DNA of 46,839 nt. It comes from Pseudomonadota bacterium (lineage in GTDB: Bacteria > Pseudomonadota > Gammaproteobacteria > Burkholderiales > Burkholderiaceae_C). The stretch covers positions 1 to 46,839 of the forward strand of contig JAFEFZ010000315.1 of NCBI GenBank assembly GCA_018240325.1, written 5' to 3'. The notes under the pieces are model-generated. The model saw only the letters and a program-made list of their open reading frames with translations, had not been told where the DNA came from and did no database searches. Shown here in pieces: positions 38,995 through 44,828 of the stretch; positions within the stretch are counted from its first letter, which is position 1, and each line of letters starts with the position of its first letter. Made by a program: the position numbers and the translations under genes.

Positions 38995-39681
38995 TCAGCG
39001 CACGACCCAGCCGCCGCTGACGGGGAAGACCTGGCCGACGAAGCAGCCGGCAGCGTCGCCGCACAGGTGCGCGGCGAACTCGGCCACTTCGCGCGCCTGC
39101 ACCAGCCGGCCCAGCGGCACCTCGCGCCGCAGCCGCTCCTGGAAGCGCGGATTGGCCTGGACCTCGCTCGGGAAGTAGGTCGGCGTGTCGACGAAGTTGC
39201 ACGCCAGCGCATTGACCTGCACGCCGTGGCGCGCCACTTCCACGCCCACCGCCTGCGCCCACGCGATCTGCGCGCCGCGCGCGGCGCTGTAGGTCGAGCT
39301 GCGGTTCTGCCCGCGCAGCGCGGCCGCGCTGCCCAGCACCAGGATGCGGCCCGAGCGCCGCTCGATCATCGCCGGCAGCAGCACGCGCGCCAGCCGCGGC
39401 AGCGGATCGACCATCGCGGCGAAGGCGTCGCGCCATTCGGCATCGCCGACCTCGGCCGCCGGCGTGGCGGCGGCCGGGATGCCGAGGTTGGCCATCAGCA
39501 CGTCGACCCGGCCGGCCGCGCGCGCGACCCGCTCGGCCGCGCCCGGCTCGGCCAGCAGTTCGGCACTGGCGACCACCTCGGCGCCGCGCCCGGCCAGCAC
39601 TTCGCACAGCGCGCGGCCGATGAAGGTGTCGGCCTGGGTGACCAGCACGCGCTGGCCCTGCAATGGCTTCGGTTGCGTCAT
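38995..39681 (-). CDS. Halohydrin dehalogenase candidate (SDR-derived, Ser-Tyr-Arg triad)
   Basis: This 228-residue protein has the short-chain dehydrogenase fold but not its chemistry. In place of the glycine-rich NAD(P) motif it has Thr15-x4-Phe20-x-Gly22 (TQADTFIG), and in place of YxxxK it has Tyr131-x3-Arg135 (YSAAR), with Ser118 twelve residues before the Tyr. T-x4-F-x-G and S-x12-Y-x3-R are the two motifs that define halohydrin (haloalcohol) dehalogenases, which turn vicinal halohydrins into epoxides and open epoxides with small anions. The C-terminal NFVDTPTYFPSEVQANP and GQVFPVSGGW also resemble that family. It is last in an acyl-CoA operon; its ATG overlaps the threonine aldolase stop (ATGA). 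Activity and natural substrate are not known. Confidence 0.82.
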   Translation of the reverse strand: MTQPKPLQGQRVLVTQADTFIGRALCEVLAGRGAEVVASAELLAEPGAAERVARAAGRVDVLMANLGIPAAATPAAEVGDAEWRDAFAAMVDPLPRLARVLLPAMIERRSGRILVLGSAAALRGQNRSSTYSAARGAQIAWAQAVGVEVARHGVQVNALACNFVDTPTYFPSEVQANPRFQERLRREVPLGRLVQAREVAEFAAHLCGDAAGCFVGQVFPVSGGWVVR

Positions 39682-40736
39682 CGGGCTTCTGCGGCGCCGT
39701 CGAGCAGCCGGCACAGCCGCTCGGCGGCGGCGTCGCACTGTGCCGCCGACACGTCCAGGTGCGTGACGGCGCGCACCGTGCGCGGCCCGAAAGCCGCGAC
39801 CAGCACGCCCTGCGCGCGCGCGCGCGCGACCAGCGCCGCCGCGTCGGGCGCGCCCGGCCGCAGGTGAAAGACGACGATGTTGGTCTGCACCGTCGCCAGG
39901 TCGAGCGCCACCGCCGCGCTGCGCGCCAGCCGCTCGGCCAGCCGGCGGGCGTTCGCATGGTCTTCGCCCAGGCGCGCGCGGTGGTGCTCGACGCCGTGCA
40001 GCGCCGCCGCAGCCAGGATGCCCACCTGCCGCATCGCGCCGCCCAGGCGCCGGCGGTTGCGGTTGGCACGCGCGATCACCTCGGGCGTGCCCGCGAGCAG
40101 CGAACCGGCGGGCGCGCCCAGGCCCTTGCTGAAGGCCACCGACACCAGGTCGAAGGGCGCGGCCAGCTCGGCTTCGCTGCGGCCCGACGCGACCGCCGCG
40201 TTCCACAGCCGCGCACCGTCGAGGAAGCTGGCGATGCCGCGCGCGCGCGCCAGCGCGCAGATGCGCACCGCCTCGTCCTGCGGGAACACGACGCCGCCGG
40301 CGCGGTTGTGCGTGTTCTCGATCTCGACCACCGTCGTCGCGGGGAACACCGGCAGGCCTGCGGGCTTGATCGCCGCCTCGAACTGTTCGGCGCTGAACAC
40401 GCCGCCGCTGCCGGCCTCGACGATCTGCACGCCCGCATTGGCCGCCGTGGCGCCGATCTCGTGCCAGCCGGCGTGCGCCTCGCGCGCGGTCACGATCTCG
40501 TCGCCGGGGCGCGCCAGCGTCATCGCCGCCACCTGGTTGGCCATCGTGCCGCTGGGCAGCCACAGCGCCGCCGGCTTGCCGAGCAGCGCGGCCATCTGCT
40601 CCTGCAGCCGATTGGTGGTGGGGTCTTCGCCGTACTGGTCGTCGCCGACAGGGGCAGCAGCCATCGCCTCGCGCATGGCCGGCGTCGGCCGGGTGACGGT
40701 GTCGCTGCGCAGGTCGATCGGGAACGCGACGGTCAT
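39678..40736 (-). CDS. ltaE: Low-specificity threonine aldolase (PLP enzyme)
   Basis: This is a 352-residue fold-type I PLP enzyme that cleaves threonine or other beta-hydroxy-alpha-amino acids to glycine plus an aldehyde. N-terminal DLRSDTVTRPTPAMREAM is the family hallmark. GDDQYGEDPTTNRLQ, the PLP-phosphate segment PSGTMANQ, Asp173 in FLDGARLWNA and the Schiff-base Lys204 in SVAFSKGLGAPAG are all present. AAGGAG precedes the ATG, inside the end of the acyl-CoA synthetase gene. Its stop overlaps the start of the halohydrin dehalogenase candidate, so the two are translated together. Confidence 0.95.
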   Translation of the reverse strand: MTVAFPIDLRSDTVTRPTPAMREAMAAAPVGDDQYGEDPTTNRLQEQMAALLGKPAALWLPSGTMANQVAAMTLARPGDEIVTAREAHAGWHEIGATAANAGVQIVEAGSGGVFSAEQFEAAIKPAGLPVFPATTVVEIENTHNRAGGVVFPQDEAVRICALARARGIASFLDGARLWNAAVASGRSEAELAAPFDLVSVAFSKGLGAPAGSLLAGTPEVIARANRNRRRLGGAMRQVGILAAAALHGVEHHRARLGEDHANARRLAERLARSAAVALDLATVQTNIVVFHLRPGAPDAAALVARARAQGVLVAAFGPRTVRAVTHLDVSAAQCDAAAERLCRLLDGAAEAR

Positions 40737-40746
40737 GACCGCTCCT

Positions 40747-42300
40747 TCAGACGATGCGCGACTGGTGCCCGGCCCAGTACTTGTCGCGCAGCGGCTTCTT
40801 GTACAGCTTGCCGGTGGGCAGCCGCGGCAGCGCGTCGGTGAAATCCACGGTCCTCGGGCACTTGAGCTTGGCCAGGTGCTGGCGGCAGAAGGCGATCAAC
40901 TCGGCCTCGAGCTCGGGCCCGGGATGCACGCCCGCCATCGGCTGCACCACCGCCTTGACCGCTTCGCCCATCTCCTCGTCGGGCACGCCGAACACGGCTG
41001 CGTCGGCGATCTTGGGGTGCGTGATCAGGAGGTTCTCGCATTCCTGCGGGTAGATGTTGACGCCGCCGCTGATGATCATGAACGACGAGCGGTCGGTCAG
41101 GTACAGGTAGCCGTCGTCGTCGACGTAGCCGATGTCGCCGACCGTGCTCATCGTGCCGTCGGCCGAGCGGGTCTGCTGCGTGCGCACCGGGTCGTTGAAG
41201 TACTCGAAGGGCGACGCGGTCTTGAACCAGATCTCGCCGGGCGTGCCCTTGGGTGCCGGCTGCATGTGCTCGTCGAGGATGTGCAGGTCGCCGATCATCA
41301 CCTTGCCGACCGAGCCCTTGTGCGCCAGCCACTGCGGGCTGTCGCAGGCGGTGAAGCCCAGGCCCTCGGTGGCGCCGTAGTACTCGTGGATGATCGGGCC
41401 CCACCAGTCGATCATCTGCTCCTTGACCTGCACCGGGCACGGCGCGGCCGCGTGCACCGCGATCTCGAGCGTCGACAGGTCGTACTTGCGCCGCACCTCC
41501 TCGGGCAGCTTGAGCATGCGGCTGAACATCGTCGGCACCAGCTGGCTGTGCGTGACCTTGTACTTCGGGATCAGGCTCAGGTAGTGCTCGGGGTCGAAGT
41601 GCTCCATGACGATCACGGTGCCGCCCACGCCCAGCGCGAGCGACACCGCGGCGTTGGGCGCCGAGTGATACAGCGGCGCCGGCGACAGGTAGATCATGTC
41701 CTCGCGGTAGCGCCACAACTGGTGCAGGAAGTGGAACAAGGGCAGCGGCTGCGACGGCGGCTGCTCGGGCAGCGGCCGCACGATGCCCTTGGGCCGGCCG
41801 GTGGTGCCCGATGAATACAGCATCGACGTGCCCAGGCTTTCGTCGGCGATCGGCTCGGCCGGGTATTGCGCGACGGTCGCCGCGTAGTCGCGGCAGCCTG
41901 CGGGCAGATCGGCGCCGCCGTCGACCACCAGGCACAGCGCCACCTTCGGGCAGCTCTTCAGCGCTTCGGCCGCGACCGCCAGCTTCGCGCGCGACGTGAT
42001 CAGCAGCCGCGACTCGCTGTTGTTGACGATGTAGGCCAGTTCCTCGGGCGTCAGGAAGCTGTTGATGCAGGTGAAGTACAGCCCCGCGCGGTAGCCCGCG
42101 GAGCAGGCCTCGAGGTAGCGGTTGTTGTTCTCCATGAAGACCGAGTAATGGTCCAGCCGCTTCAGCCCCTGCGCACGCAGCAGGTGTGCGAGGCGGTTGC
42201 TGCGCGCTTCGAACTCGCGCCAGCTGACCGCTTCGCCGGTGGCCGCCATGATGAAGGCGGCGCGGTCGGGGTGCATCGTTGCGTACTTGCCGGGGTACAT
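40747..42300 (-). CDS. Acyl-CoA synthetase (AMP-forming; ANL superfamily)
   Basis: This is a 517-residue enzyme that activates a carboxylic acid to its CoA thioester via an acyl-adenylate. The adenylate-binding P-loop YSSGTTGRPKG is at residues 162-172. YYGATEGLGF is the A5 motif. The hinge region includes YLTDRSSFMIISGGVNIYP, and the C-terminal catalytic lysine is in LPRLPTGKLYKKPL. AGGAG lies upstream of the ATG at 42300. It is third in a thiolase-dehydrogenase-synthetase operon, so the substrate is probably a medium or long-chain, branched or cyclic acid that is then beta-oxidised; the chain length cannot be read here. Confidence 0.92.
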   Translation of the reverse strand: MYPGKYATMHPDRAAFIMAATGEAVSWREFEARSNRLAHLLRAQGLKRLDHYSVFMENNNRYLEACSAGYRAGLYFTCINSFLTPEELAYIVNNSESRLLITSRAKLAVAAEALKSCPKVALCLVVDGGADLPAGCRDYAATVAQYPAEPIADESLGTSMLYSSGTTGRPKGIVRPLPEQPPSQPLPLFHFLHQLWRYREDMIYLSPAPLYHSAPNAAVSLALGVGGTVIVMEHFDPEHYLSLIPKYKVTHSQLVPTMFSRMLKLPEEVRRKYDLSTLEIAVHAAAPCPVQVKEQMIDWWGPIIHEYYGATEGLGFTACDSPQWLAHKGSVGKVMIGDLHILDEHMQPAPKGTPGEIWFKTASPFEYFNDPVRTQQTRSADGTMSTVGDIGYVDDDGYLYLTDRSSFMIISGGVNIYPQECENLLITHPKIADAAVFGVPDEEMGEAVKAVVQPMAGVHPGPELEAELIAFCRQHLAKLKCPRTVDFTDALPRLPTGKLYKKPLRDKYWAGHQSRIV

Positions 42301-42361: not shown

Positions 42362-43519
42362 TCAGCCGCTCTTGCCCAGCCCCATCGAGCGCGCGATCAC
42401 CTCTTTCATGATCTCGCTGGTGCCGCCATAGATGCGCGACACGCGCGTGTCGGCGTAGGCGCGGGCGATTCCGTATTCCCACATGAAGCCGTAGCCGCCG
42501 TGCAGCTGCAGGCACTCGTCGATCACGCGGCCGGCAGTCTCGGTGCAGGTGAGCTTGGCCATCGCCGCCGTCGGCGCATCGAGCTCGCCCGCCAGCAGCA
42601 GCTCCATGCAGCGGTCGACGAACACGCGCGCCATCTGCACCTGCGCCTGCAGCTCGGCCAGCTTGAAGCGCGTGTTCTGGAAGTTCGCCACCGGGTTGCC
42701 GAAGACCTTGCGTTCGCGCACGTAGGCCATGGTGTCGTCGATCGCCTGCTGTGCCGACGCGGTGGTGCCGATCGCGATCTGCATGCGCTCCCAGGGCAGC
42801 TCCTGCATCAGGTAGACGAAGCCCTGCCCTTCGGCGCCGAGCAGGTTGGCCGCCGGCACGCGCACGTCGGCGAAGAACAGCTCGGAGGTGTCCTGTGCCT
42901 TCAGGCCGAGCTTCTTCAGCCGCTTGCCCTTGTCGAAGCCGGCCATGCCGCGCTCGACCAGCAGCAGGCTCGTGCCCTTGGCGCCGAGCGCCGGGTTGGT
43001 CTTGGCGACCACGATCACCAGGTCGGCGTTCCAGCCGTTGGTGATGAAGGTCTTGGCGCCGTTGAGGATGTAGTCGCCCGCGGCGTCCTTCACGGCGCTC
43101 GTCTTCACCGCCTGCAGGTCGGAGCCGACGCCGGGCTCGCTCATCGCGATCGCGCCGATGACCTCGCCGCGCGCCATGCGCGGCAGCAGCCGCTGCTTCT
43201 GCTCGTCGCTGCCGTACCTCAGGATGTACGGCGCGACGATCTCGGAGTGCAGCGAGAAGCCCAGCCCCGAGGTGCGCGCCTTGGCCGTCTCTTCCATCAT
43301 CACCAGGCTGTACAGCCGGTCGGCGCCGGCGCCGCCGTACTGCTCGGGCATGCTCGGGCACAGGAAGCCGTTGGCGCCGGCCTTGGCCCAGACCTCGCGG
43401 TCCACGTAGCCGCGCTCCTCCCAGGCCTCGTGCTGCGGGATCACCTCCTTCTCGAGGAAGCGGCGGAACGAGGCGCGGAACTCCTCGTGTTCAGGCGCGA
43501 ACAGGCGGCGCGGAATCAT
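42362..43519 (-). CDS. Acyl-CoA dehydrogenase, long-chain/isovaleryl type
   Basis: This is a 385-residue FAD enzyme. EPGVGSDLQAVKTSA (flavin contact) and LQLHGGYGFMWEYGIARAYAD are standard. The segment IYGGTSEIMKEVI has Gly at the place of the MCAD catalytic Glu, while LMQELPWERMQIA supplies a Glu (244) on helix G, as in long-chain and isovaleryl-CoA dehydrogenases. It is thus a different mechanistic subtype from the 596-residue dehydrogenase at 1.6-3.4 kb. AGGGG lies 8 nt before the ATG. The thiolase is 14 nt upstream and the acyl-CoA synthetase 61 nt downstream. Electrons presumably go to ETF. Confidence 0.95.
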   Translation of the reverse strand: MIPRRLFAPEHEEFRASFRRFLEKEVIPQHEAWEERGYVDREVWAKAGANGFLCPSMPEQYGGAGADRLYSLVMMEETAKARTSGLGFSLHSEIVAPYILRYGSDEQKQRLLPRMARGEVIGAIAMSEPGVGSDLQAVKTSAVKDAAGDYILNGAKTFITNGWNADLVIVVAKTNPALGAKGTSLLLVERGMAGFDKGKRLKKLGLKAQDTSELFFADVRVPAANLLGAEGQGFVYLMQELPWERMQIAIGTTASAQQAIDDTMAYVRERKVFGNPVANFQNTRFKLAELQAQVQMARVFVDRCMELLLAGELDAPTAAMAKLTCTETAGRVIDECLQLHGGYGFMWEYGIARAYADTRVSRIYGGTSEIMKEVIARSMGLGKSG

Positions 43520-43533
43520 GGCGGCGCCCCTGC

Positions 43534-44712
43534 TCAGAGCCGCTCGATGATCGTCACGTTCGCCTGGCCGCCGCCTTCGCACATCGTCTGCAGCCCCCAG
43601 CGCTTGCCGCGCGCGTGCAGCGCGTGCACCAGCGTGGCCATCAGCTTGGTGCCCGATGCGCCCAGCGGGTGCCCGAGCGCGATCGCGCCGCCGTTGACGT
43701 TGAGCCGCTCCGGATCGGCCCGGGTGTGCTGCAGCCAGGCCAGCGGCACCGACGCGAAGGCCTCGTTGACCTCGAACAGGTCGATGTCGTCGATCTTCAT
43801 GCCGGCCTTGGCGAGCGCGTGGTCCGTCGTCTGCAGCGGCGCCTCGAGCATGATCACCGGGTCGCCGCCGCGCACCGTCATGTGGTGCACGCGCGCCAGC
43901 GGCTTCGCGCCGATCGCCTTCAGGCCCTTGTCGTTGACCACCATCACGCCGGAGGCGCCGTCGCAGATCTGGCTGGCGTTGGCCGCCGATACGAAGCCGC
44001 CCTCGCGCAGCGTCTTGACGCTGGCGATGCCTTCGAGCGTGGCGTTGCTGCGCAGGCCCTCGTCGGCGACGTGCATCTCGCCGAGCTCGCCGCCTTCGGC
44101 CGCCTTCGCGGCCAGCGGCACGATCTCGGCCTTGAACGCGCCGGCCTGCGTGGCCGCCGCGCCGCGCTGGTGGCTTTGCAGCGCGAAGCGGTCGAGCGCG
44201 TCCTTGCTCAGCTTGTACTTCGCCGCCAGCATCTCGGCGCCCATGAACTGGCTGAACTCGGGGCCGGGGAAGCGCCGGCGGATCGTCGGGCTCATGTAGT
44301 GGCCCAGGCCCGCCTCCTTGTAGACCTTGCCCAGGCTGCCCATCGGGATGCGGCTCATGCTCTCGACGCCGGCGGCGATCACGCAGTCCATCGTGCCCGA
44401 CATCACCGCCTGCGCGGCGAAGTGCAGCGCCTGCTGCGACGAGCCGCACTGGCGGTCGATGGTCACGCCGGGCACGTCCAGCGGCAGCTTCGACGCCAGC
44501 CCCGCCATGCGGCCGATGCAGCCGCTCTGCTCGCCGGCCTGCAGCACGCAGCCCATGATCACGTCCTCGACCAGCGCCGGGTCGGCGCCGCTGCGCTCGA
44601 CGAGCGCGTCGATCACCTGCGCCGCCAGGTCCACCGGGTGCCAGCCCGACAGGCGGCCCCCACGCTTGCCGCCGGCGGTGCGGGCGGCGGCGACGATATA
44701 AGCTTCGGCCAT
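43534..44712 (-). CDS. Thiolase (acetyl-CoA acyltransferase)
   Basis: This is a 392-residue enzyme for thiolytic cleavage of 3-ketoacyl-CoA. The active-site nucleophile is Cys89 in DRQCGSSQQAL. The second site has NGGAIALGHPLGASG (His) and CEGGGQANV (Cys) near the C-terminus. All are intact and the length is standard. The ATG at 44712 has AAGGAAG upstream; 27 in-frame upstream codons are not thiolase-like. It is the first gene of the five-gene minus-strand operon and is divergent from the SDR gene at 44829. Sequence does not decide between degradative and biosynthetic thiolase, but the operon favours degradation. Confidence 0.95.
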   Translation of the reverse strand: MAEAYIVAAARTAGGKRGGRLSGWHPVDLAAQVIDALVERSGADPALVEDVIMGCVLQAGEQSGCIGRMAGLASKLPLDVPGVTIDRQCGSSQQALHFAAQAVMSGTMDCVIAAGVESMSRIPMGSLGKVYKEAGLGHYMSPTIRRRFPGPEFSQFMGAEMLAAKYKLSKDALDRFALQSHQRGAAATQAGAFKAEIVPLAAKAAEGGELGEMHVADEGLRSNATLEGIASVKTLREGGFVSAANASQICDGASGVMVVNDKGLKAIGAKPLARVHHMTVRGGDPVIMLEAPLQTTDHALAKAGMKIDDIDLFEVNEAFASVPLAWLQHTRADPERLNVNGGAIALGHPLGASGTKLMATLVHALHARGKRWGLQTMCEGGGQANVTIIERL

Positions 44713-44828
44713 GATGCGCTTCCTTTGCTGCGGGCCCGGCACGGCCGGGCGGTAGAGGGGACGGCGCAGCATAGCGCGGCGCACGCGTCGCATGGGCGAC
44801 AGACCACCATCCCTTCAGGACGATCCCG

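Follow-up and report, generated by a model that had tools for sequence, protein, structure and literature searches.

A probable D-type halohydrin dehalogenase with an altered residue pair beside its predicted pocket, encoded at the end of an acyl-CoA catabolism gene run

Halohydrin dehalogenases (HHDHs) are defined by two sequence motifs, T-x4-F/Y-x-G and S-x12-Y-x3-R, and the homotetramer is the stated family state (PMC4989007). The mechanism described for the family involves proton removal by the Tyr/Arg pair and a halide pocket located at the nicotinamide site (PMC4989007, PMC11976700). Within the D subtype, the enzymes HheD19 to HheD38 display 57–95% identity to verified D enzymes (PMC4989007). 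The gene for HheC of Agrobacterium radiobacter AD1 shares its operon with a gene for an epoxide hydrolase (PMC11976700), an arrangement that the 2016 review text reports for only two of the HHDH genes then known, while not excluding other roles (PMC4989007).

The gene considered here occupies positions 38995–39681 on the minus strand of the window, that is, the whole 46,839-nucleotide stretch of DNA that was analysed, and is an intact open reading frame of 228 codons plus a stop. The initial annotation had read it as an HHDH from both diagnostic motifs, and the translation indeed contains them at the same positions: T15-x4-F20-x-G22 (codons at 39616–39639, minus strand), the predicted nucleophile pocket, and S118-x12-Y131-x3-R135 (39277–39330, minus strand), the catalytic triad by family analogy. 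The C-terminal NP...VPLGRL...GQVF..SGGW blocks, also part of that reading, are present as well. The rarity by chance that had been claimed for the motif pair holds up. Among 1613 called proteins from the window and related loci, a set that is not SDR-rich and serves as a general control, motif 1 occurs anywhere in 213 and motif 2 in 172, the two stand in register in 126, and all 126 are homologues of the window HHDH; shuffling of the protein reproduced both motifs in register in 2 of 100000 copies. The pair is therefore real rather than a chance coincidence. Across 128 distinct relatives, gathered from 138 loci, the S, Y and R of the triad and G22 are each invariant, and T15 and F20 are each found in 127. 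The changed forms of motif 1 are confined to L073 (Leu for Thr15) and L110 (Leu for Phe20), both of which retain the S-Y-R triad despite this alteration.

The classical SDR patterns, TGxxxGxG and Y-x3-K, are absent from the protein: TQADTFIG stands where SDRs have TGxxxGxG, so that the nicotinamide-binding glycine motif is missing, and Arg replaces the catalytic Lys. As an SDR comparison, six of the 11 other matches in the same genome were aligned to the window HHDH, at 27–35% identity; by eye, all six carry Y-x3-K, and TGxxxGIG is seen in the three for which the alignment extends to the N terminus. No alignment to the window HHDH was obtained for a seventh locus of this genome, L084.

Comparison with solved structures points in the same direction. 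In the PDB, the closest sequences are those of 7b73 (E = 7e-90), 8xxb (5e-81), HheB (4zd6; 9e-47) and the dehalogenase 6a41 (3e-32), with the first dehydrogenase, FabG, well behind the HHDHs (6e-26). Foldseek titles identify 7b73 as HheD2 and 8xxb as an engineered triple mutant of HheD8 with chloride, and the corresponding identities are 61% and 60%, against 40% to HheB; both D-type values, the second being to the mutant chain, fall inside the 57–95% range given for HheD19 to HheD38 (PMC4989007). Ten HHDH or dehalogenase chains rank ahead of the first FabG in Foldseek, and the TM-scores to FabG chains (0.74–0.81) lie near those to HheB (0.81–0.82), so fold similarity by itself does not discriminate. 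The AlphaFold monomer model has a mean pLDDT of 82.6 and falls under 50 at residues 120–126 and 165–169, and because of this weakness its pocket details were left unused.

A tree of 52 rows, comprising the window protein, 40 relatives, five PDB chains and six SDRs of the same genome, places HHDHs and SDRs on opposite sides of a branch with support 100/99. The window protein groups with 42 other D-like rows, including 7b73 and 8xxb, beside HheB; support is 84/84 for the D-like fork and 100/97 for the fork adding HheB, and the long branches of HheC, HheB and the SDRs make the deep joins unsure. The tree proposed in the initial annotation, with HheA to HheG and classical SDRs, is thus borne out as regards separation from the six SDRs and placement among D-type enzymes, but not for classical HheA enzymes and subtypes E, F and G, which are absent from the rows. 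The forecast that automatic pipelines would call a plain SDR also proved apt: Pfam reports adh_short and adh_short_C2 only, and the best 25 of 173 NCBIfam matches are all SDR-type models below their cut-offs, so that an automatic name drawn from these matches would hide the function. Both motifs, the nearest structures (HheD2, HheD8 and HheB) and the position in the tree relative to SDRs uphold the HHDH reading. Sequence and tree show family membership and fold similarity agrees, with the chemistry expected from that of the family; we conclude with high confidence that the gene encodes a cofactor-free HHDH of subtype D, very probably a further member of the already described HheD subtype.

In HHDHs the serine of the triad holds the substrate oxygen, the part that Ser118 would play here. 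Tyr131, activated by Arg135, would deprotonate the hydroxyl group of a vicinal haloalcohol, and the substrate oxygen would displace the halide to yield an epoxide. The halide is predicted to rest in a pocket formed by T15, F20 and G22 together with the 161–164 backbone, at the site of nicotinamide in SDRs; in the reverse reaction, the epoxide would be opened with halide, azide, cyanide or nitrite.

Next to this predicted nucleophile pocket lies what appears to be the one oddity of the protein, the loss of Gln161/Asn166 in the loop CNFVDTPTYFP (codons 161–171; 39169–39201, minus strand). Position 161 is Gln, and position 166 Asn, in 127 of the 128 distinct relatives, whereas the window HHDH has Cys and Thr, respectively. 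The sole exception is a sister protein from genome G070 (L099/L114) with Phe161/Thr166, which is 77% identical to the window HHDH and joined to it with 100/100 support. HheD2, the best match in both sequence and fold, and HheD8 share both motifs with the window HHDH, as does HheB, a member of another subtype whose motif 1 has Tyr, yet all three have Gln/Asn at these positions. HheC (1pwx) has the same motif pattern and triad order but sits on a distant branch of the tree and has Pro in place of C161; with Ser in 6a41, position 161 thus varies between subtypes. Counted from the alignment, C161 corresponds to HheC P175 and V164 to HheC L178, and in models of HheC azide is held by the L178 backbone, while the carbonyl of P175 is next to the carbon of the epoxide (PMC11976700). 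Given the location of the replaced pair beside the predicted pocket, activity may be altered. In addition, R23, directly after motif 1, replaces a Pro found in 126 of 128 distinct relatives.

The HHDH gene is the last in a minus-strand run that starts with a thiolase (acetyl-CoA acyltransferase; 43534–44772, NF005077 above cut-off and gene call; the start codon is uncertain, as an open reading frame to 44793 exists), followed by an acyl-CoA dehydrogenase (42362–43519; Pfam domains above cut-off and gene call), a FadD4-like acyl-CoA ligase (40747–42300; best NCBIfam match, below cut-off) and a PLP-dependent aldolase of the threonine aldolase/GntG family (39678–40736; NF041359 above cut-off). 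The ATG of the HHDH gene overlaps the stop of the aldolase gene by four bases (ATGA). Beyond the HHDH gene, the opposite strand encodes proteins of the NUDIX and MgtE families, an alpha/beta hydrolase and a UvrD-like helicase, and a search for promoters and terminators gave no signal above shuffles.

The adjacent aldolase was considered as a partner of the HHDH and rejected, since it is found in none of 80 related loci within the flank covered and occurs separately in the genus. An aldolase relative is present in 53 of 60 genus genomes (E up to 1e-60); among 30 aldolase loci listed, with 1.5 kb flanks, the window is the only one with an HHDH nearby, and in G070 and G055 the two genes are on different contigs. 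In the genus member G016 (L141), acyl-CoA ligase and aldolase genes adjoin (87% and 90% identity), the contig ending inside the aldolase, and no HHDH was found in that genome. Unlike in the case of HheC, no epoxide hydrolase gene was seen at the window HHDH, and an epoxide hydrolase partner found no backing from the one model used, PF06441, which matches nothing in the genome; this absence also counts against the HHDH reading. Elsewhere the genome has an above-cut-off match to the model for type II haloacid dehalogenases (G000:C220:5190-5777, L178), for which no link to the HHDH emerged.

Among the genome contigs scanned, 161 stretches encode a relative, and the best 80 of these, at 62–73% identity, are mostly betaproteobacterial by title; the relatives suggest an origin of the DNA in Burkholderiales. 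A weak homologue (28–39%) of some window neighbour occurs, in the flank covered, in nine of the 80 loci (L011, L012, L015, L019, L020, L032, L064, L069 and L080), and clustering of the 1081 neighbour ORFs from the window and the 80 loci gave groups of six loci at most. The idea of a conserved operon that would reveal what the subtype does was accordingly dropped, the aldolase occurring in 0 of 80 loci and clusters spanning at most six. Thus, most of the sampled D subtype behaves as a loose single gene. Four loci (L006, L011, L015 and L019) share a leucine-degradation-like run around the HHDH (names by eye), with a biotin carboxylase-like gene upstream and an HMG-CoA lyase-like gene 71–91 bases downstream; at 4 of 80 loci, this setting was set aside as a subtype-wide context.

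The alternative that survives best holds that the protein derives from HHDHs but has a changed pocket and now serves acyl-CoA catabolism with another nucleophile or another substrate, acting on ordinary haloalcohols weakly or not at all. In its favour, C161/T166 here and F161/T166 in the G070 sister depart from the Gln/Asn of 127 of 128 relatives, and both genes have an acyl-CoA setting: the window HHDH follows the thiolase, acyl-CoA dehydrogenase and acyl-CoA ligase, and the genes around the sister encode thiolases (Pfam confirms two; a third was named by eye), ChsH2-like OB-fold proteins (one confirmed, the other two named by eye), an enoyl-CoA hydratase, a nitronate monooxygenase (NMO)-family protein and a MaoC protein, a cluster that may be a catabolic island. 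The sister cluster (L114:2671-12266) is near an Arm-DNA-bind_3 (integrase N-terminal) fragment. Against this, motifs 1 and 2 are intact, position 161 differs between subtypes in any case, and the setting is shared with loci elsewhere: L012 and L020, among 80 other loci, have at least two probe classes on the same strand at a distance of up to 5 kb, which with the four leucine-like loci brings the acyl-CoA setting to six of 80, besides the window and its sister. The leucine-like loci retain Gln/Asn, which argues against a link between setting and residue change. Moreover, the probes were drawn from the window and sister loci, the test was devised afterwards, and 5 kb on both sides is present in only 51 of the 80 loci, so the acyl-CoA setting is a lead only. 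We consider this alternative unlikely. Even more doubtful appears the proposal that the window HHDH and its 77% sister constitute an HheD sub-lineage whose pocket loop was remodelled when the gene was recruited to operons for acyl-CoA catabolism, so that it would have a dedicated natural role on a CoA-bound or acid substrate rather than in the general haloalcohol detoxification that is assumed for the family.

The distribution of relatives bears on whether the gene is functional at all. The view in the initial annotation that known members are few does not stand: 128 distinct relatives were collected here, and D-type enzymes up to HheD38 already appeared in the 2016 review (PMC4989007). With an established subtype and common relatives, the window HHDH is new only as a member of its family. 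Matches at 1e-40 or better, counting its own genome each time, are present in 31 of 81 genus genomes, 39 of 299 genomes drawn from the family and 11 of 41 relative genomes, with one match per positive genome among the best candidates scored for each (9 each in the 299-genome survey); in its own genome, the next matches after the window HHDH have 34% identity or less. Spread by plasmids was rejected, as tblastn at 1e-30 returned no HHDH match among 72,556 plasmid records. In Hydrogenophaga intermedia MER 62, the relative at L050:8001-8666 has one internal stop, which reflects either decay of this copy or a mistake in its sequencing. This relative and the patchy presence in the genus (31 of 81 genomes) would suit a decaying gene without function, a very improbable reading given that the open reading frame is intact, that its start overlaps the upstream gene and that, in comparison with the sister, dN (0.151) is well below dS (0.416), which fits purifying selection. 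Least credible is a classical NAD(P)-dependent SDR bearing both motifs by coincidence: the common fold, the SDR families of Pfam and NCBIfam and the position of FabG close behind the HHDHs in Foldseek are outweighed by the absence of TGxxxGxG, the replacement of the catalytic Lys by Arg, the confinement of the in-register pair to homologues in the 1613-protein set and the 100/99 separation from the six SDRs of the same genome.

Returning to the D-type HHDH reading, the position of the gene at the end of a same-strand acyl-CoA catabolism run leads us to a best guess, weakly grounded, that the natural substrate might be an acid with a halogen or epoxide group encountered in this pathway. The patchiness of the gene, the single match per positive genome and the scarcity of common neighbourhood argue against one fixed operon across the subtype. 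This survey of D-type loci thereby bears on the natural role of HHDHs. The C161/T166 variant represents a natural test of the role of the Gln/Asn pair, and the window HHDH is a modest new candidate for biocatalysis.
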